Assembly: GCA_015661205.1 (NCBI GenBank)
Contig: JACVXV010000039.1
Location: 1-34,010, forward strand
DNA: 34,010 bases
Direction: 5' to 3'
DNA from: Candidatus Brocadiaceae bacterium
GTDB taxonomy: Bacteria; Planctomycetota; Brocadiia; Brocadiales; Brocadiaceae
A program made the position numbers and the translations under genes. Numbering within the stretch: position 1 is the first letter of the stretch; every line of letters starts with the position of its first letter. The notes under the pieces are model-generated. The model was not told the origin of the DNA and searched no databases. It was given only the letters and a program-made list of their open reading frames with translations. Shown here one piece after another: positions 130 through 23,196 of the stretch.

Positions 130-274
130 CTACCAGAAACGGATTGAAATTTTTCTATCATTAAAACAATTATGACAAATCGCTCCATAATAATACAAGG
201 CACCGTCTCCCACATGGGGAAAAGTGTTTTGGTGTGTGCCTTATGCCTTATTCTGAAACAGGAGATGTATTAGC

Positions 275-3200
275 GTGATCAATGTGGATTTCCTCCGCGA
301 GGGGATTGAAAAGCTACTCTATATACACGAAGAGGTCTTCTGGCTTAAAGAGTGTTTTACCGTTGGCATCTCACTGCTGGTCTTCCTGTTTGTTTGGAAG
401 ATTGTGGTACTTGAATATGGCAGGGACGTACTGCTTTATATAAGCGCCGTTATAGGCGCCGCCTGTATCGCTATGGGCGATATGGAGTATTGGAGCAGCA
501 ACGACATCCTGAAACTCGTCGCCCCCATATCCCTTTTTCTGTTGGCGCATAAGAAAAAGCAGGAAAGCGACGTCATACTGTTCATCTTTCTCGTACCCTA
601 TTTCTTTACCTCGTACGCCTTTCATATTTACAAGAATATTTACTACGGCGGCGTTTCCGTATTAACTATTCCGCTTATTATCTTTTGCATTGCCCTTGCT
701 AAACAGAGCAGGGCGCTCTCTCTCTTTATCAGCATAGTCATAGGGATATTGATAAACCTGATCGGCGCCAATTGTGAGCCGGGCGTTAACGACATCATCA
801 TAAATCCCGCATTGATTACCCTTGCTATAAGGTCGATTGAGTTCCGAACAAAAAACCCGCGCTACACCGATTTTTTAAAGATATTCTGGATAACACTCGT
901 CTGCTTTGCCTTTTTCGGCAGTTGGGCATTCCATTTTCTGGAACCGGTACTTCCGCCGATCCTTGACCTACTGAAGGCGTACATTGCTGACCCGCTCTTT
1001 AGTGCAAGCAAACACATGATAGCGCGTGACGAAGAGGTTTTTTGGTTTAAAGAGTGTTTTACCGTAGGCATGTCGATACTGGTCTTCCTGTTCGTCTGGC
1101 GGATTGTGGCGCTTGAATACGGCAGGGGGGTGATGCTCTACGTAAGCGCCTTTATCGGCGCCGCCTGTATTGCGATGGGCGATATGGAGTATTGGAGCAG
1201 CAACGACATCCTGAAACTCGTTGCCCCCATATCCATCTTCCTGCTGGCTCAGAAGAAGAAGCGGGAAGGCGATGCCATGCTGTTCTTCTTTCTTGTTCCC
1301 TATTTCTTGACTTCGTACGTCTTTCATATTTATAAAAACTTTTACTACGGCGCCTTTTCCTTACTAACCATTCCCTGTATTATCTTCTGCATTACCCTTG
1401 TCAAACAGAGCAAGACGCTTTCAATCTTAATTAGCATCGTTATTGGGGTGTTGATAAACCTGCTCGGTATCAATTGCGAGCCTGGCGTTAACGACATCCT
1501 TATCAATCCGGCGCTTATTACCCTTGCCGTAAGGTGGATTGAGTTCAGGACGAAAAACCCGCGATACACGGGTTTTTTAAAGACATTCTGGATAACACTC
1601 GCCTGCTTTGCCTTTTTCGGCAGTTGGGCATTCCATTACCTGGAACCGATACTTCCGTCTGTCATCGACCAACTGAAGGGGTTCGTTACGGCGAATTTTG
1701 TTGATGCGGGCAAAGACCTGTTAGAGCGCAATGAAGAGGTATTCTGGCTCAAGGAGTGTGTCACCGTTGCCGGCTCAGCGCTGGTCTTCCTGTTTGTCAG
1801 GAGGGGTGTTGTCCAGGGGTATGGCAGAGAATTATTGCTCTTTATGAGCGCCTTAATCGGCGCTGCCTGCATTATGCTGGGTGACATGGAGTATTGGAGC
1901 AGCAATGACATGCTGAAGCTCGTCGCTCCCATATCCATGCTCCTGCTGATGCATAAGAGGAAGCGGGAAAGCGACGTTATGCTGTACATCTTTCTTATAC
2001 CCTATTTCCTGACCTCGTATGCATTTCACCTTTACAAGAATTTTTACTTTGGTGGGGTCTCCTTATTATCGGTACCCTTTATTATCTTTTGCATCGTCCT
2101 GTCGAAACAGAGCAAAGCGCTTTGCATCACTATCAGCATTATCCTTGGGATACTGATAAACCTGATCGGTATCAGCCTAGAACCCGGCATTAACGACGTT
2201 ATCATAAATCCGGCACTGATTACCCTCATTGTCCGGTTGATTGAATTCAGGACAAAAAACCCACGGTACAATAGCTTTTTGAAGATATTCTGGGTAACGC
2301 TCATCTGCTTTGCCTTTCTCGGCAGTTGGACGTTCCACTACCTGGAACCGATACTTCCCACGATCATCGACCAATTGAAGATATACGTTTTAGCGCCTTT
2401 CTTTGATACGGGGACACACCTGATAGAAGTACACGAAGAAGAGGTCTTTTGGATCAAAGAGTGTTTTACCACGGGTGTTTCTCTGCTGGTCTTCCTGTTT
2501 GTTTGGAGGGTCGTGATACTTGGGTATGGTGGAGAAATACTGCTTTTCGTGAGCGCCTTTATCGGCGCGGCCTGCATTATGATGGGCGACATGGAGTATT
2601 GGAGCAGCAACGACATCCTGAAACTCAGCGCCCCCATAGTCTTATTCCTGCTGGCACACAGGAGGAAGCAGGAAAGCGACGTCCTGCTGTTCATCTTCCT
2701 CGTACCATATTTTCTCACCTCGTATGCGTTTCATGTTTATAAAGGCATTCACTACGGGGGACTGTCATTATTATCCCATCCGCTCCTCGTCTTCAGCATC
2801 ATCCTCGTGAAAGATAGCAGGGTATGGTCTGTCTTTTTCTGCATTGTTATCGGAGTTCTGATAAACCTGATCGGTATGAACACTGAACCCGGCATCAATG
2901 ACATTATCGTAAATCCCGCCTTGCTCACCCTTATCGTAAGGGCGATTGAACTTAAGAAGAAGAATCCAAGTTACACGGGTTTCTTAAAGATACTCTGGAT
3001 AACGCTCATTTGTTTTGCCTTTTTTGGCAGTTGGGTATTCCATTTCGTGGAACCGATGCTCCCATACATGCTTGATTATTTGAATGCGTATGTAATGATA
3101 CCTTTACTTGACGCGGCGAAACACCTGATGGAGATGTGCGACGAGGTCTTTTGGCTCAAAGAATCCGTCACAACGCTTATATCCTTTATCATTTTACTTA

Positions 3201-3769
3201 TTGTTTGGGGACTTGTGAGACTGGGGTTTGGCGCCGGTGCGCTTTTGGTGGTGGGAACGTTTATCGGGTTTGGTTGTATCTTTCTGGATGGCGTTGACTT
3301 TTGGAGCAGCAATGACATACTGAAACTTCTTGCGCCAACGGCCGTATTTTTACTGGCAAACAAGAAAAAACAGGACAGCGACATTTTCTTGTACATATTT
3401 CTCGTGCCGTACCTCCTTACTTCGTATGAATTCTACCGGAGTGTACCGCATGGCGCGATGTCCGTGATGTCACACGCAATGATCCTTATAAGTATCGCCT
3501 TTGTTAAGAAAAACATGCCCCTTTCGTTCATGACCAGTGCTACGGTGGGGATACTCATAAACCTGCTTGGCGTTAATGCCTCTCCCGGCACGAACGATAT
3601 TTTTGTGAATCCCGCTCTGATTACGCTCGCGGTCAGAGGGCTTGAGTCCCGGACTAAAAATCCCCGGTACACGGAGTTTCTCAAATCATTCTGGCTGACA
3701 CTCGTATTTTTCGCCTACTTCGGCAGTTGGGTGTACTACCACTTACAAATCGCTTATTCAAGTATGTAA
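275..3769 (+). CDS. Large polytopic membrane protein of five tandem 234-residue repeats, unknown function
   Basis: I do not recognise the family. The protein has 1164 residues. It consists of five homologous units beginning near residues 19, 253, 487, 722 and 956, so the period is 234-235 residues (about 702 bases). Each unit has roughly seven hydrophobic stretches, which suggests about 35 membrane segments in total. Landmarks recur in every unit: an opening EVFWxKE, a GDMEYWSSNDILKL loop (GVDFWSSNDILKL in unit 5), an EPGxNDI..NPALITL segment, RTKNPRY, and a closing FGSWxFH. In unit 5 the EPG block reads SPGTND, and this unit is the most diverged. The GTG start at 275 is supported by ggag at 261-264. 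There is no signal peptide or enzymatic motif. The conserved charged and aromatic loops suggest a transport, channel or scaffold role, but that is only inference. The gene stands alone, convergent with resB across a non-coding gap. Confidence 0.85.
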   Translation: MINVDFLREGIEKLLYIHEEVFWLKECFTVGISLLVFLFVWKIVVLEYGRDVLLYISAVIGAACIAMGDMEYWSSNDILKLVAPISLFLLAHKKKQESDVILFIFLVPYFFTSYAFHIYKNIYYGGVSVLTIPLIIFCIALAKQSRALSLFISIVIGILINLIGANCEPGVNDIIINPALITLAIRSIEFRTKNPRYTDFLKIFWITLVCFAFFGSWAFHFLEPVLPPILDLLKAYIADPLFSASKHMIARDEEVFWFKECFTVGMSILVFLFVWRIVALEYGRGVMLYVSAFIGAACIAMGDMEYWSSNDILKLVAPISIFLLAQKKKREGDAMLFFFLVPYFLTSYVFHIYKNFYYGAFSLLTIPCIIFCITLVKQSKTLSILISIVIGVLINLLGINCEPGVNDILINPALITLAVRWIEFRTKNPRYTGFLKTFWITLACFAFFGSWAFHYLEPILPSVIDQLKGFVTANFVDAGKDLLERNEEVFWLKECVTVAGSALVFLFVRRGVVQGYGRELLLFMSALIGAACIMLGDMEYWSSNDMLKLVAPISMLLLMHKRKRESDVMLYIFLIPYFLTSYAFHLYKNFYFGGVSLLSVPFIIFCIVLSKQSKALCITISIILGILINLIGISLEPGINDVIINPALITLIVRLIEFRTKNPRYNSFLKIFWVTLICFAFLGSWTFHYLEPILPTIIDQLKIYVLAPFFDTGTHLIEVHEEEVFWIKECFTTGVSLLVFLFVWRVVILGYGGEILLFVSAFIGAACIMMGDMEYWSSNDILKLSAPIVLFLLAHRRKQESDVLLFIFLVPYFLTSYAFHVYKGIHYGGLSLLSHPLLVFSIILVKDSRVWSVFFCIVIGVLINLIGMNTEPGINDIIVNPALLTLIVRAIELKKKNPSYTGFLKILWITLICFAFFGSWVFHFVEPMLPYMLDYLNAYVMIPLLDAAKHLMEMCDEVFWLKESVTTLISFIILLIVWGLVRLGFGAGALLVVGTFIGFGCIFLDGVDFWSSNDILKLLAPTAVFLLANKKKQDSDIFLYIFLVPYLLTSYEFYRSVPHGAMSVMSHAMILISIAFVKKNMPLSFMTSATVGILINLLGVNASPGTNDIFVNPALITLAVRGLESRTKNPRYTEFLKSFWLTLVFFAYFGSWVYYHLQIAYSSM

Positions 3770-3956: not shown

Positions 3957-4126
3957 TCCTGTAGATTGTTTTCGTTGGTTAGCTTGCTGAGGCGCCGTAG
4001 CCGCTTTCGGCCACGCAATGGGCATTACATCCCCTTCCCAACCGTCCTGAAAATAATCAGCAACATGCCTGCTGAAAAGAACAAGATAGTCAGAAAGGTA
4101 AGGAGAATACTGGGATTTCTTTTTAC
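3957..4126 (-). pseudogene. Relic of the 3' end of a second resB copy
   Basis: On the minus strand, positions 4126 down to 4025 encode an in-frame tail beginning VKRNPSILLTF, containing LLIIFRTV and ending in a stop at 4025-4027. This matches the last 34 residues of the intact ResB at 4938-5900, which begin VKRNPSIPLTF and contain LLVIFRTV. About 90 of 107 aligned bases agree by eye. The similarity continues past the stop into non-coding DNA: the stretch from about 3957 corresponds to about 4886, including the shared string ttgttttcgtt. Upstream of the tail the reading frame is lost. A possible further remnant in another frame (VVTISKELKEV, around 4180-4215) is weaker. I read this as a truncated, decayed duplicate of the neighbouring gene. 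Confidence 0.8.
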
Positions 4127-4937
4127 CTTCTGTACTTGTGGTTGCACCTCCTGGCGCCGGGAAAGATGATGTACCAAACCTCCTTAAGTTCTTTACTAAT
4201 TGTAACAACAGGGGAGAAATATATAAACTCAACATGGCCTCTTATTTGATTTTTCACAATGGATTGAAACAACAATAGCCTGATATGCCATTTCTGACAT
4301 ACCAAGCTATTGTTTAAACTCTCTCATATCGCTTTACACCCCTTTCTCTAAAAGCTTAAGGATGCTTTTATCATTATCGGTAACATTTCAAAGACTACGA
4401 CGCGCTTTATATACTTTTTACATGTTGTTGGACGGGTCTTATTTCAATGTTACTGATAATTTCAAAGAACTTTTGGAGGGGAACTAAAAGCGGTCGAACA
4501 GATACATACTTATACATCTTTAAATTGCTTTTTTTATATCTTGAGGAACGTTTAACCTCATTAACTCTCTCTTAGTTCCTCTCCACCTTCATTTTACCAC
4601 ATTATTTGATTTTTGCCACCTTCCTCAGATTATTTTTCAATCAAGTCACGATTCAAAATGTGGTAATGAAAAGCTTAAAGTCTCTTTTTGTTTTTTGAAA
4701 TCACAGAGGGTTTGCTGGTGATTTATAGATTTCTTAACTTAATACGTATTGGGAAGGAATGGCACTGGTGAAAAGCCCGGCAGGTTTGTAAAGGGGCTTT
4801 GTAAGATAGATTCCGCACAAAAGGTTACAAGTAATATGCCCCTACCTGTTGGAATCGGGAGATACCTGTAGCTTGTTTCCGTTGTGCTATTTGTTTTCGT
4901 TGATTTGCTTGCTGACACTTTCGGCTACGCAATGGTA
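4127..4937. other. AT-rich non-coding stretch with three inverted repeats
   Basis: I see no credible gene here. It holds: (1) an imperfect long hairpin at 4271-4314, with arms aacaatagc and gctattgtt whose pairing extends inward with two mismatches; (2) an inverted repeat attatcggtaacatt (4373-4387) and aatgttactgataat (4446-4460), 14 of 15 matching; (3) ttaccacatt (4594-4603) and aatgtggtaa (4657-4666), perfect. The pattern looks like remains of small mobile or structured elements between two convergent genes. Confidence 0.5.
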
Positions 4938-5900
4938 TTACCTCACCTTCCGAACCGTTCTGAAAATAACCAGCAATACGCCTGTTGAAAAGAAAAAGAT
5001 AGCCACAAAGGTAAGGGGGATGCTGGGATTTCTTTTTACGCTGACGAGGGTTCCCGGCACGGACTTGATATCCTCAAAAACGATATTAACCCCGTTTACC
5101 ACCTTTGCATTTTTTTCCCCGACCGGCAGAAATATTTGCTGGGATCCCTGCCCTTTCACGGTAACAACGAGCTTCACGACGGGATACTGGTATTGCGGAG
5201 GCATGTACAAATCGGCCACGTACAGTTGCGCATTACCGGTGTTTATCTTCTCATTAATAGATACGTTGCTGGGGCGTCCATCTATATTCAGAATAACGCT
5301 GGATGCGATCCATCCATAATCACGCATAAGAACTTCTAACACCCCATGCTGTAAAAGAACTGGATTGTTGTAACCCAGGGTATCGGAGTACTCCACGCCG
5401 TCTTTTCGAACGGAGACAAAGACCGTGATGTTTTTGGGCATCCCGTTGGGATAAGAACTGGTTTTAAGGTCGGTGACCTTCATCTCTGCCCCTCCCACAT
5501 CCACCCATTCATTAGCGACGGAAACGGGCGGCGACGAGGTAGAGCAAAGCCCGCCCACGAGGTGGACGACCAGCGTGATAATAAAACCGACGTGCACAAG
5601 GGACGCGCCGTAGAGGGAAATCTTCTTTACGCCGCCTTTTGCCTTTCTGATAACTGAGTCAAGGGTACACAGGAAGGTATTGACACCGTAAAAAACACAC
5701 CCGATAAATAGCAGATAAAACCAGGCATGAATCGGCTTCCACTCGGTGAAAAAAAAGGTTATGTCGTCACCGGAAAGCCCGGCATAATGGCGGGGGAAGT
5801 AGCTCATGACAAAGCTGCCGATAATAAGCAATCCGGTAGCGGTAAAGCCGACAATAATACCGAGTTTTTGTGATTTTAAAAAGTTGTAGATGGCATTCAT
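4938..5900 (-). CDS. resB: ResB/CcsB-like cytochrome c biogenesis protein (System II)
   Basis: ResB (CcsB/Ccs1) works with CcsA to bring heme across the membrane and attach it to CXXCH motifs of c-type cytochromes. The 320-residue protein has four hydrophobic segments (about 13-33, 58-78, 97-119 and 290-312). A large extracytoplasmic domain (about 120-285) sits between the third and fourth, the usual ResB topology. His103 and His113 lie inside the third segment and His58 at the edge of the second; such His residues are candidate heme ligands in this family. It is shorter than many ResB proteins but complete. ccsA lies directly upstream on the same strand, 174 bases away. No clear Shine-Dalgarno sequence precedes the ATG. 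A decayed copy of its 3' end lies about 0.9 kb away at 3957-4126. Confidence 0.85.
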   Translation of the reverse strand: MNAIYNFLKSQKLGIIVGFTATGLLIIGSFVMSYFPRHYAGLSGDDITFFFTEWKPIHAWFYLLFIGCVFYGVNTFLCTLDSVIRKAKGGVKKISLYGASLVHVGFIITLVVHLVGGLCSTSSPPVSVANEWVDVGGAEMKVTDLKTSSYPNGMPKNITVFVSVRKDGVEYSDTLGYNNPVLLQHGVLEVLMRDYGWIASSVILNIDGRPSNVSINEKINTGNAQLYVADLYMPPQYQYPVVKLVVTVKGQGSQQIFLPVGEKNAKVVNGVNIVFEDIKSVPGTLVSVKRNPSIPLTFVAIFFFSTGVLLVIFRTVRKVR

Positions 5901-10500: not shown

Positions 10501-11847
10501 ATGACGACGCTAAAAAGAGCAACAAAGGTATCAGAAATTCCAGCCGCATTTCCACCGGCGCCGTTAAGCAATGACGAATTCGACACGTTTTACGTGCCGG
10601 TTGACAGCGAGAGGGACAACTGCCTTTCAAGGGTCAGTGAATTAAAGAAAAAGCTGGAGGGGTCAAACACCAAGATACTCTTTGCCGGCCACCGTGGTTC
10701 GGGGAAATCCACCGAACTGAATAGACTGAAAAGAGAAATAGAGAGGGACACGTTCTTCGTCAAGTTTTCCGTTGTCGAAGAACTCGATATAAACGACATC
10801 AGTTACGTAGACCTCATCATGGTCATGATGGAAAAGCTTGCAAGCGAGGCAGTAAAGGAAAGGATTATCACAACCGACAGCAAGTATATCAAGCAGATAA
10901 AGGACTGGCTGGTGGATGTAACAAAAATAAAAGAGGAAGAGACGGGCTACCAGCTTGAGGTGCAGGCCGGAATCAAGGCAAACCAGGGCGTCCTCTCGCT
11001 ATTTATAGGACTCATAGCCGAATTCAAGGCTGCCATTCGAGCGTCGAGTAATAACAAGACGGTATACCGCAATGAGCTTGAAAAGAGGGTAACCATACTC
11101 AAGGCAAACTGCAACGTCCTGATTAATGAAATAGAAATGGGTTTGAAGGCAAAGAATCAGAGACTCCTGCTTGTTATCGAGGATATGGACAAGGCGGACA
11201 CCCGCAAGGTGCAAGAGATATTGTGCAAGCATTCCGGCATCCTCGCCGAGCTTAACACTCGAATGATATTTGTGGTGTCCATGTTTGCCCTGACCACCGC
11301 AATCCTTGCGGACATAACTGGTAGGTACACTATGGTGAGCCTCCCGATGATAAAGGTCAGAGAGAAAAACGGAGCGCCGTTTAACGCAGGCATTGATACC
11401 ATCAAGGCCGTTATAGAAAAGCGTGCCGAACCATCGTTATTCGAAAAGGACGTAATCGGCCTGTTGATTGACAACTGCGGCGGCGTTTTTCGCGACCTCT
11501 TCGAGATGATAGAGATTGCCGCAAATGCTGCCGACTTTCGCAAACGGCAAACCATCTGCAAAGAAAACGCCGGGTACGCCTTCGAAAGGCTCAAGGCTAA
11601 ATATCGCGGTATGATTACTGTTTCCAATGAGCAAAAGGGCGGAATTACGACCGATGGCCTTTATGACAAACTGGTAGAAGTCTGCAAATCTACTACGAAA
11701 AGCCACTCCCTTGACGAGAAGATGCTGTTGCTCCTCTCGTGCTTGGCTGTGGTAGAGTACAATGGGGTGCAGTGGTTTGACGTCCATCCCGCCGTAAAGA
11801 GCCTTTTACAGGATATGAATCTTTTACAGGACGTGCAAAAGACCTGA
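10501..11847 (+). CDS. AAA/STAND-type P-loop ATPase
   Basis: The 448-residue protein has a clear Walker A, GHRGSGKST (63-71), and a Walker B ending in acidic residues, LLLVIEDMDK (222-231). These define an ATPase of the AAA_16/STAND class. No membrane segment or nuclease motif is visible. The C-terminal third is helical and could be a sensing or partner-binding part. The stop TGA overlaps the ATG of the next gene (TGATG at 11845-11849), so the two are translationally coupled. aggaaag at 10491-10497 is a good ribosome binding site for this ATG. STAND ATPases with TPR partners often act as sensing switches in signalling or conflict systems. That role here is inference; the substrate or trigger is unknown. 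Confidence 0.8.
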   Translation: MTTLKRATKVSEIPAAFPPAPLSNDEFDTFYVPVDSERDNCLSRVSELKKKLEGSNTKILFAGHRGSGKSTELNRLKREIERDTFFVKFSVVEELDINDISYVDLIMVMMEKLASEAVKERIITTDSKYIKQIKDWLVDVTKIKEEETGYQLEVQAGIKANQGVLSLFIGLIAEFKAAIRASSNNKTVYRNELEKRVTILKANCNVLINEIEMGLKAKNQRLLLVIEDMDKADTRKVQEILCKHSGILAELNTRMIFVVSMFALTTAILADITGRYTMVSLPMIKVREKNGAPFNAGIDTIKAVIEKRAEPSLFEKDVIGLLIDNCGGVFRDLFEMIEIAANAADFRKRQTICKENAGYAFERLKAKYRGMITVSNEQKGGITTDGLYDKLVEVCKSTTKSHSLDEKMLLLLSCLAVVEYNGVQWFDVHPAVKSLLQDMNLLQDVQKT

Positions 11848-13010
11848 TGGATACACAGGAACTTGGTCTCCTCATGAACGCCCTAAAAAACAAGGATACG
11901 GGCTTCTATCTCGTGGAGGCCTCCGACAATGCGGTTATAGACGACCTGCTCCTGAAGATAAACGTTGCCATGGGGCAGGTGGGAAAGAAGACCGCAGCCA
12001 TAGACTTTTCCGGGAAAAGTGACTGTTGGTTTGCCGCAGACCTCATTTGTAACAAGGTAAAGGCGTCGCCGGACATCCATATCTTTTTCATCAGAAACCT
12101 CGAAACCCCCGCAGGCGCTAACCCCGCAAACTTTCTCCGCCAGTTGAACATGTCGAGAGAGACCATCTATGCCCTCGGCAGAAACATGGTATTCATCGTC
12201 AGCCCGGCATTTGCGCGGCTCTTTATGCTGCACGCCAAAGACCTCTTTTCGTGGATACCCCAGCGATTCACATTTGAAGGCGGCGCCGTTGTAACGCCCA
12301 GGGAATTTGCGCAGTCCATGCGGATGGATGAGCGCGTCAGGTTCCGGGGCGATAAGGACAGGGCGTACCTGAAGGAACTTATTGCCCTCTACGAGGAACA
12401 ATTACGGCATGCGCCTGATAATGCCCAATTCAGGGTAGAAAACATCATCAAACCCCTTGCAGGCCTGTATAAAGAAAACGACGATTTTGGCAAAGAGGTA
12501 TTGCTCAGGGGAGAGATTAAAGATTTCTACAAAGTCCCCGATGAAAGATACGCCGCGGCCTTGACAAGTCTTGGCAATGTCTATGGAAGACTTCCAACGG
12601 GAGATCGCGCTGAAAATCTCCAAAAGGCCATAGATGCCTACCGGGAGGCATTAAAGATTCGCACCATTGAGGCATTTCCGGTGGGTTATGCCAGGATCAT
12701 GAACAACCTCGGCGTTGCCTATCAAGGCCTGCCGGCAGGAGACCGCGCCGAAAACCTCAAAAAGGCCATTGATGCCTACCAGGAGGCATTAAAGATTTTC
12801 ACCATTGAGGCATTTCCGGTGGATTATGCCATGACCATGAACAACCTCGGCAATACCTATCAAGACCTGCCGACAGGCGACCGCGCCGAAAATCTCAATA
12901 AGGCCATAGACGCCTACCGGGAGGCCTTAAAGATTTACACCATTGAGGCATTCCCCCGTGATCACGCAATGGTAAAGAGTAACCTTGATGGATTGCTGGA
13001 TAAGGCGTGA
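11847..13010 (+). CDS. TPR-repeat protein coupled to the upstream ATPase
   Basis: This 387-residue protein has two parts. Residues 1 to about 150 look like a degenerate NTPase domain: RNMVFIVSPAFARLF and a following segment ending FSWIPQRFTFE match the type found before TPRs in STAND-like proteins, but no Walker A is present. Residues about 215-375 hold tandem TPR-like repeats with a 46-residue period (GDRAENLxKAIDAYxEALKI...FPxxxAxxxNNLG); GDRAENL recurs three times, 138 bases apart at the DNA level. TPRs bind protein partners. The start overlaps the ATPase stop by one base, implying the two products act together, possibly as a split version of a STAND-TPR protein. No effector domain can be seen in either. 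Confidence 0.8.
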   Translation: MDTQELGLLMNALKNKDTGFYLVEASDNAVIDDLLLKINVAMGQVGKKTAAIDFSGKSDCWFAADLICNKVKASPDIHIFFIRNLETPAGANPANFLRQLNMSRETIYALGRNMVFIVSPAFARLFMLHAKDLFSWIPQRFTFEGGAVVTPREFAQSMRMDERVRFRGDKDRAYLKELIALYEEQLRHAPDNAQFRVENIIKPLAGLYKENDDFGKEVLLRGEIKDFYKVPDERYAAALTSLGNVYGRLPTGDRAENLQKAIDAYREALKIRTIEAFPVGYARIMNNLGVAYQGLPAGDRAENLKKAIDAYQEALKIFTIEAFPVDYAMTMNNLGNTYQDLPTGDRAENLNKAIDAYREALKIYTIEAFPRDHAMVKSNLDGLLDKA

Positions 13011-20596: not shown

Positions 20597-21985
20597 TCAC
20601 GGGGCATCAGCGCATACATGTATGTCTTCCGAATACTTAATTGTGGCATAGTCCCATGTGTCATTAAACCCGTTACTATGTCCGGTCACGTAGACATTGC
20701 ACGATGCATCTAAAGCTATGCCGAAAGCCCGATCATCACCATTTACCGGTCCGTTGTATCTTGCTATCCATTGCCGAGAGCCATTAGTACGATACTTTAT
20801 AGTTACATAGTCGCTAATAAAAACAGACACATTCGCATGCCCGGTAACATAGACATTACCGGATGCATCTACTGCCAAGTCATAAGCTTCATCTCTCCTG
20901 CTTGCCGGACCGTCGTATCTTGCTACCCATTGTTGTAGGCCATCAGCATTATACTTTATCGTTGCCAGGTCAGAACCGGTGCCGTCTCCCTTACTATTGC
21001 CGGTTACATAGGCATTGCCCGATGGATCTACGGCTATGGCAGTAGGCACATCAAAATCTTTTCCAGGCCCGTTGTATCTGGAAACCCATTGCCGGAGGCC
21101 ATTGGCGTCATACTTTATCGTTGCATAGGCAGAAGATTTATTTCTCCAGGTTCTATAACTCGACCCGGTTACGTAGACATTGCCAGTCGCATCAATATCT
21201 ATGGCAGCAGCATAATCATCTCTGTTTGTCGATCCGTTATATCTTGCAACCCACTGTTCGTTGCCGTTGACATCATACATTATAGTCGCATAATCACTCC
21301 TGTTGACGGGTCCACCATAACTCGACCCGGTTACATAGGCATGGCCTGAGGCATCCACTGCTAAGGCAGCAGCATAATCACCGCCGTTTCCCAACGGTCC
21401 GTTGTGTCTGGCAATCCATAGCTCATTGCCATCGGTGTCATACTTTATCGTTGCATAATCAACACCGGTGGCAGTTCCACCATAACTTGTCCCGGTTACA
21501 TAGACGCTGCCTGAGGCATCTACCGCTATGGCAACAGCCTGGTCCCAACCATTTCCCGGCCCATTGTATCTTGCAACCCACTGCTGGTTGCCATTTGCGT
21601 CATACTTTACCGTGGCATAGTCATATGTATAGTCGCCGGTTCCATCACTGTAGCCGGTCACATAGACATTGCCGGATGCATCTACCGCTAATTGCTGATT
21701 GCCATACGCATCATACTTTATTGTTGCATAGTCAAGCCTGGTTTCATTGGTTCCAAAACTATTCCCGGTCACATAGACATTCCCATCTGCATCTACAGCT
21801 ATGGCAGCAGCCTCATCCTGACCATTTCCCGGTCCGCTGTATCTGGCGGCCCATTGCTCTGAAGAATATGAAACAGCCGGCATGAGAATAAACAAAGAAA
21901 AGATAATAATCGTTGACATTATATACCTGTAACCCGCAACTTTCGATAACACCAATAATTTTTTTAAAATCGATATCGTTCTCAT
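20597..21985 (-). CDS. Exported SBBP-type beta-propeller repeat protein
   Basis: From the ATG at 21985 (gagg ribosome binding site nine bases upstream) the protein has 462 residues. A signal-like hydrophobic stretch, MSTIIIFSLFILMPAVSY, sits about 22 residues in, so export is likely though the N-region is long. The rest is a string of about 54-residue repeats of the type QWVARYNGPxN...AIAVDASGNVYVTG...DYATIKYDANGN, matching SBBP (beta-propeller) repeats. I count seven full repeats and one partial one. The second is shortened: YDAYGNQQ runs directly into LAVDASGNV, missing about 22 residues that every other repeat has. The function may be adhesion or surface binding; this is inference. The GTG/ATG options upstream would overlap the radical SAM gene by a few bases. 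Confidence 0.85.
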   Translation of the reverse strand: MRTISILKKLLVLSKVAGYRYIMSTIIIFSLFILMPAVSYSSEQWAARYSGPGNGQDEAAAIAVDADGNVYVTGNSFGTNETRLDYATIKYDAYGNQQLAVDASGNVYVTGYSDGTGDYTYDYATVKYDANGNQQWVARYNGPGNGWDQAVAIAVDASGSVYVTGTSYGGTATGVDYATIKYDTDGNELWIARHNGPLGNGGDYAAALAVDASGHAYVTGSSYGGPVNRSDYATIMYDVNGNEQWVARYNGSTNRDDYAAAIDIDATGNVYVTGSSYRTWRNKSSAYATIKYDANGLRQWVSRYNGPGKDFDVPTAIAVDPSGNAYVTGNSKGDGTGSDLATIKYNADGLQQWVARYDGPASRRDEAYDLAVDASGNVYVTGHANVSVFISDYVTIKYRTNGSRQWIARYNGPVNGDDRAFGIALDASCNVYVTGHSNGFNDTWDYATIKYSEDIHVCADAP

Positions 21986-22020
21986 TTTATTGTCCTCAAA
22001 TTTCCGTCCTACAGCAAAAA

Positions 22021-23196
22021 TCACGCAGTACCCTCCCACAGTTGGAGTTCTCCGGGGTCATCATGATATGGCAAGACATGGAATGAAGGGCAATACTGGC
22101 ATTGCAAGGGGACAACGTTATTATGCACGCGGTTGCGGAATTGGGAATATTTCAGTGATTTCCATATTTGTTTAAAGGGCGTTTGGAAAATGTTTCCCAT
22201 AGCGTATTTACGCTGAAATTCACGGCGGTTCCCTTCGTTACCGGCGCAACACGGTATAACGGTGCCGTCTACGAAAATAAAGGGCATACTCCAGTAGGTG
22301 CAGTTGCTAATGTCCGCCTTTCGCCGGGGGACGTTCTTGTTCCAGGCGGCCAGGACGTTCAGCTCCAACGCCCTGCGGTTGGTGGCCTCCACAATTTCAT
22401 CGGGAATAACGGTGGGGAGTCCTTCAATTTCCTTGTATTGATGGAGAATGCTCGTAAAGAAAACGGAGGGGCGTTCCTTGCCGCGTGTCACATCGTAAAG
22501 CAATTCGATAAATTTTTCCGTTTCATGCAAATTGTAGTTGGAGATGATGTAATGAAAGACCACCTGCGGGTAGATTTGCCCTGCCGCACGGCGGATATCA
22601 AAGAAATCGGAAAGGTTTTGCTTCACCTGTTCAAAGTTTGAACCAACACGGATTTTCTCGTAGGTTGCCGCTGTTGCGGCGTCAATCGATGCAATGATCT
22701 TATCAACCTTCAGCCGCACCAATTCCTTTGCCCGGTCTTTTGTCAGGAGGTGGAAGGAGTCGTATATTTCAACGTCAATTTTTTTGGACTTGACATACTC
22801 AATCATCCGCAAGAAATCCTTGTTCAGGAAACTCGTCCCGATCCCCGTCATGCCCACCCACTTCAGGCTGGGAAATTGCCTGATGATGTAAACAAATTCG
22901 TTGTATGACATATCCCTCTCAACCTCATTCCAGTAGGTGTGTTCGCACATCACGCATTTCAGATGGCAACGGGTGGTCGTCTCCACCTCGATTAGTCGTG
23001 GCAGATGGAGCAAATAGGGAAAGAGGGTTTTTAAAATGAGCTTACGGGGGGCTTCTTTTCCAAACGTCAGGATATACCACAACTTGTTATAGATACCCTT
23101 AACACCCTGCTCCCGGAATATTTTTTTACACTTTTGTAATGATGGCATGAATGAATTATATATCCCGCCAATAAGGGTATCAACACCATTTTTCAC
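22021..23196 (-). CDS. Radical SAM protein with a SPASM-type C-terminus
   Basis: The 391-residue enzyme has the radical SAM cluster motif CHLKCVMC (Cys77, Cys81, Cys84) in a segment that follows LIEVETTTR. A TIM-barrel pattern follows, and then a Cys-rich C-terminal part with SNCTYW, VIPCCAG and CQYCPSF, as in SPASM domains that bind extra iron-sulfur clusters. Such enzymes often modify peptides or cofactors, or act in cell-surface pathways. The substrate is unknown. GTG at 23196 is the longest start; an internal ATG at 23148 is an alternative. The propeller gene starts 35 bases downstream on the same strand. No small precursor peptide gene could be identified nearby. Confidence 0.88.
   Translation of the reverse strand: MKNGVDTLIGGIYNSFMPSLQKCKKIFREQGVKGIYNKLWYILTFGKEAPRKLILKTLFPYLLHLPRLIEVETTTRCHLKCVMCEHTYWNEVERDMSYNEFVYIIRQFPSLKWVGMTGIGTSFLNKDFLRMIEYVKSKKIDVEIYDSFHLLTKDRAKELVRLKVDKIIASIDAATAATYEKIRVGSNFEQVKQNLSDFFDIRRAAGQIYPQVVFHYIISNYNLHETEKFIELLYDVTRGKERPSVFFTSILHQYKEIEGLPTVIPDEIVEATNRRALELNVLAAWNKNVPRRKADISNCTYWSMPFIFVDGTVIPCCAGNEGNRREFQRKYAMGNIFQTPFKQIWKSLKYSQFRNRVHNNVVPLQCQYCPSFHVLPYHDDPGELQLWEGTA

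Follow-up and report, generated by a model that had tools for sequence, protein, structure and literature searches.

Five tandemly fused copies of an undescribed, lineage-restricted membrane protein in a Candidatus Brocadiaceae genome: an intact and old array

The window analysed here is a whole contig of 34,010 bases from a Candidatus Brocadiaceae bacterium, and a repetitive membrane protein gene begins 274 nt from its end. ORF analysis placed the gene at positions 275-3769 of the plus strand, where an intact frame with a GTG start encodes 1164 amino acids. The chance of an open frame of this length was about 5e-28, as calculated from base composition. Five units follow one another in frame, starting at residues 1, 235, 469, 704 and 938. 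Their start-to-start spacings were 702, 702, 705 and about 702 nt, and units 1 to 5 were 234, 234, 235, 234 and 227 residues long, respectively. The features of the locus are as follows.

260..264, plus strand: AGGAG, a ribosome-binding-like site from the sequence, 10 nt upstream of the GTG start
275..976, plus strand: unit 1, residues 1-234, with eight predicted membrane helices
977..1678, plus strand: unit 2, residues 235-468
1679..2383, plus strand: unit 3, residues 469-703
2384..3085, plus strand: unit 4, residues 704-937
3086..3769, plus strand: unit 5, residues 938-1164 and the stop codon; the first-branching unit
3966..4126, minus strand: decayed remnant of a duplicated ResB 3' end, 81% identical to 4891-5039 and lying between the array and the intact ResB gene

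The tandem duplication inside one protein described in an earlier note was thus borne out, and the unit length of 234-235 residues given there applied to units 1-4 but not to unit 5. Between array units, DNA identity was 58-80% and protein identity 47-74%; unit 5 shared 47-52% identity with the others. The near-identical block reported for units 1 and 2 corresponded to an exact match of 47 nt (473-519 and 1175-1221), the longest word common to any two units. Three signature strings said to be conserved in every unit were not identical throughout, unit 3 having WSSNDMLKL and unit 4 having NPALLTL and KNPSY.

The array adjoined ResB/CcsA-type cytochrome c maturation genes; such a cytochrome c maturation system II has been described in anammox bacteria (PMC4222556). 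On the array side of ResB/CcsA no conserved neighbour was found, and that side varied between genera. From its sequence, the decayed ResB duplicate is the apparent scar of a rearrangement beside the array. Elsewhere in the window, positions 10501-13010 of the plus strand held an AAA-type ATPase gene followed by a TPR-repeat protein gene, the two ORFs overlapping by one base, and positions 20597-22039 of the minus strand encoded an SBBP beta-propeller-repeat protein with at least six repeats. The source genome (G000) is a draft metagenome-type bin of 3.9 Mb in 292 contigs, 97% complete, and the sole member of its genus among the genomes compared. No match to hydrazine synthase alpha (PF18582) was found in this genome, perhaps because the gene was left unbinned.

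The AlphaFold model of unit 1, made with 34 relatives, reached a pLDDT of 83.8 and a pTM of 0.82. It contained eight long helices (residues 14-41, 46-65, 71-87, 91-114, 118-138, 142-162, 174-188 and 192-218) plus a short helix spanning 167-171. The number of lysine and arginine residues per loop alternated, with 2.1, 2.4, 1.7 and 2.2 in the odd loops and 0.0, 0.9 and 0.03 in the even loops. The unit had been described as seven-helix, with about 35 membrane segments in the protein; the model and the loop charges give eight helices per unit and therefore about 40 segments. Under the positive-inside rule, both termini of the unit are predicted to lie outside the membrane (N-out/C-out), so head-to-tail fusion would preserve the topology and give every unit the same orientation. 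A two-unit model kept both bundles and the helical linker between them, with a relative packing that was not fixed (pTM 0.54). Foldseek searches with the unit model found no fold match in the PDB (best E 1.0, TM 0.36) or in the viral fold library BFVD (best E 0.63).

Scans of the unit and its family against Pfam, NCBIfam and PHROGs gave only chance-level matches. Searches of the PDB by sequence and by profile found no relative, the sole match being a FliQ fragment with an E value of 0.015, and no account of this eight-helix protein turned up in the literature searched. These results, together with the fold searches, agree with the earlier statement that no family was recognised. Single-unit homologues, which that note had missed while proposing that related genomes be checked for them, were found across the Brocadiaceae and once in the array's own genome. 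They were present in 31 of the 33 Brocadiaceae genomes (the two without one were 84% and 58% complete), in 6 of the 17 genomes of the sister family that includes Scalindua, and thereby in 37 of the order's 62 genomes. Outside the order none was found among 392 phylum-wide genomes, nor were relatives of the unit found in the phages, plasmids and viral contigs searched. A scan of genome contigs with unit 1 alone gave no match, and the same scan with the family alignment gave 30 loci, the named genera being Brocadia, Jettenia, Kuenenia, Scalindua and Loosdrechtia. The family profile matched the array in five separate full-length segments (E 5e-102 to 3e-92); this profile includes the array units themselves, and the single-unit homologues also matched the array protein by plain protein search. 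Kuenenia hertensis and a genus related to it carried a further single-unit paralogue (L065:6439-7113 and L066:8785-9462), which was divergent, with about 35% identity to the units, and in L066 lay near several ammonium-transporter-like genes. A tie to anammox chemistry itself was rejected because presence of the unit protein does not track hydrazine synthase alpha: many genomes of the order carry PF18582 without the unit protein.

The single-unit gene was found in the order response regulator, histidine kinase, unit, PH, TPR. The response regulator and kinase upstream were of the PhoB/PhoR type, the kinase with PAS and HAMP domains; downstream, the PH protein was of the bPH_2 kind and was followed by the TPR protein. 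Across 40 loci, in which one G010 gene present at both ends of its contig was counted twice, the histidine kinase lay within 800 nt upstream in 24 and the PH gene lay downstream in 27. The array's own genome has its single-unit copy on contig C132, likewise beside a PhoB/PhoR-type pair and genes for a bacterial PH-domain protein and for a TPR protein. This neighbourhood was missing from Scalindua and, in part, from Kuenenia. At the array it was absent downstream, and upstream the contig ends. In several genomes, sugar-transferase and radical SAM genes were found near the cluster, mostly on the opposite strand.

In the tree, the five array units formed one clade (support 100/99). Unit 5 fell outside units 1-4 (97/97) and had the longest branch, in accordance with the suggestion that it is the oldest or fastest-evolving unit. 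The duplication had been called recent; dS was 0.62 between units 1 and 2 and at least 0.87 for all other pairs, with a range of 0.62-1.10 within units 1-4. Because dS is 0.6-1.1, the duplication is old. The dN/dS between array units was 0.19-0.24, and values near 0.2 mean that the units have been maintained; purifying selection on the array units is supported. Units 1-4 share a two-residue insert that unit 5 does not have. Local signals compatible with gene conversion were detected between units 1 and 2 across helix 8 (permutation p 0.004) and between units 2 and 4 across the WSSND block (p 0.009), both values being per pair and uncorrected for the ten pairs compared. The gene conversion proposed earlier therefore keeps some local signal with weak support, which suggests limited exchange in two segments of the array. 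For direct descent of the array from the single copy on C132, the AU test gave a p value of 0.21.

Conservation was then mapped onto the unit. The D, E and N residues conserved in 90% or more of the single homologues (E22, D65, D71, N72, D73, E111, N157 and N173) all lay in the outer half. Conserved charged or amide positions overall showed a modest outward bias (10/125 outer versus 4/100 inner), and the inner half contained no conserved acidic or amide residue. Conserved glycine and proline residues lay within the helices. F18, W19, K21, E22, N72, D73, K76, N173, W201 and W213 were invariant in the family and retained in all five units, and 17-19 positions were invariant in all array units and singles. 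E111 was present in 30 of 30 single-unit homologues (alignment A3) and in unit 5, which also retained T167 and H128, the latter shared with unit 4. In units 1-4 position 111 was A, V, A and A, respectively, and Asp71 was replaced by Ser in all five units. The earlier idea that one functional site recurs in each unit is not supported by these substitutions: with the otherwise invariant E111 lost from units 1-4, five equivalent active sites are unlikely. Together with the insert of two residues, the loss of Glu111 supports the origin of units 1-4 from one derived copy.

The five-unit form was found in one assembly only among the genomes searched. In Ca. Loosdrechtia aerotolerans (L048:7898-9274, minus strand), two adjacent, unfused unit genes lay in the same frame with one stop and seven codons between them. 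Both copies were nearest to their own genus in the tree, so this two-gene state is independent of the array; judged by its sequence, it is the arrangement expected before a fusion. The series from a single gene through two in-frame neighbours to a five-unit fusion offers a concrete path to a tandem-fused giant membrane protein. It also draws attention to a membrane family, so far uncharacterised, that nearly all Brocadiaceae genomes carry, often beside a two-component system; these bacteria matter for nitrogen removal.

The array is real, intact and old, a tandem fusion within an undescribed, lineage-restricted membrane family. As to what it does, the reading we favour, though tentatively, is that an eight-helix protein which in its single form serves as an envelope binding or sensing module was fused head to tail, unit 5 remaining canonical and units 1-4 having diverged. 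The single protein would be an outward-facing module of the cell envelope, concerned with envelope homeostasis, and may work with the adjacent PhoB/PhoR-type pair and PH-domain protein. Gene neighbours and conservation are the basis for this proposed function, and the PH-domain parallels are analogies: the B. subtilis ydbST genes for PH-domain proteins are members of the sigma-W regulon (PMC3498285), and bacteriocin export in E. faecalis requires PH-domain proteins (PMC8657885). The fused gene would be an additional paralogue that has moved to a new place; its unit 5 would have kept the canonical pocket, and units 1-4 would serve as diverged modules for binding or scaffolding, held at a fixed ratio. 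Its history may have run from tandem duplication through loss of the stop between copies and relocation beside ResB/CcsA to expansion of the first unit, with the relocation left unplaced relative to the fusion. Several points count against the envelope-module reading: the PH/two-component neighbourhood does not lie beside the array itself and is wholly lacking in Scalindua and partly in Kuenenia, the outward bias of conserved charged or amide positions is only modest, and a single assembly has the five-unit form.

An outward-facing membrane enzyme, in which each unit would be catalytic on a lipid-linked or extracytoplasmic substrate, is unlikely. The conserved E22, D65, N72, D73, K76, E111, H128, N157 and N173 lie mostly near the outer face, and the retention of E111 in unit 5 only and of H128 in units 4-5 would fit a full residue set in unit 5 with activity changed or lost in units 1-4. 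The sugar-transferase and radical SAM genes near the cluster would suit such a role, but most of them are on the other strand; no enzyme family or fold match was found, and profile comparison with exosortase and YhhN was negative. Gene-dosage amplification or drift, in which the repeat would have expanded neutrally or for little benefit and having five units would serve no particular function, is similarly improbable. The array is unique to one genome, a rearrangement scar adjoins it, and each of its units deviates from the family at 9-14 of the 63 conserved positions, a count that nearly all singles stay below. However, all five units are open and in frame, their dN/dS is low, and the 17-19 invariant positions have been kept throughout.

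We consider it rather doubtful that the single protein normally assembles as a multi-copy ring or pore, with perhaps five members, which the fusion ties into one chain. An even helix count with both ends outside, near-equal units with regular linkers, and the glycine and proline residues within helices would all suit such an oligomer. Yet the two-unit model leaves the relative orientation unfixed, the five-unit case is single while Loosdrechtia has two copies, unit 5 is just 47-52% identical to the others, and the inner half lacks a conserved acidic or amide residue. Equally doubtful is the broader proposal of a new fold restricted to the anammox order, with the array a natural covalent pentamer that sets the number of subunits in a ring or multi-site receptor, unit 5 being canonical and units 1-4 specialised. 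An assembly artefact, for which the draft bin and the nearby contig end might speak, is highly implausible because the longest exact word between two units, 47 nt, is below ordinary short-read length, and the units are 58-80% identical, the frame is intact and the GC content of the array (0.464) is close to that of the rest of the contig (0.460).

Several known membrane proteins were compared with the unit family, exosortase and YhhN sequences from related genomes being aligned to it profile to profile. Exosortase EpsH (PF09721) is a multi-helix membrane protein of similar size that occurs elsewhere in some of these genomes; it was rejected, with a Pfam match in 0 of 35 family members and an hhalign probability of 0.6%. 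The exosortases of this order keep C176-S177-G178, R221 and H242, whereas the unit family has no such conserved motif. Lysoplasmalogenase YhhN (PF07947), also multi-helix and of similar size, was the top but meaningless match in the viral fold library and was rejected as well (no Pfam match, hhalign probability 0.1%, TM-score 0.25). Rhombosortase/rhomboid (TIGR03902) was rejected at 15 bits against a cut-off of 84, with 1 of 35 members matching at E 0.003. In four-domain voltage-gated channels, a whole membrane domain is repeated head to tail in one chain, the counterpart of tetramers. The array resembles them, as it does any tandem-fused membrane protein, in this internal repetition, but its unit is unrelated and it has five units of eight helices. 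Also among the closest counterparts is the single-unit protein of Brocadiaceae and Scalindua, which is homologous along the whole unit at 36-61% identity; it consists of one unit of roughly 218-249 residues, usually in the PhoB/PhoR-PH-TPR cluster, whereas the array joins five units beside ResB/CcsA.
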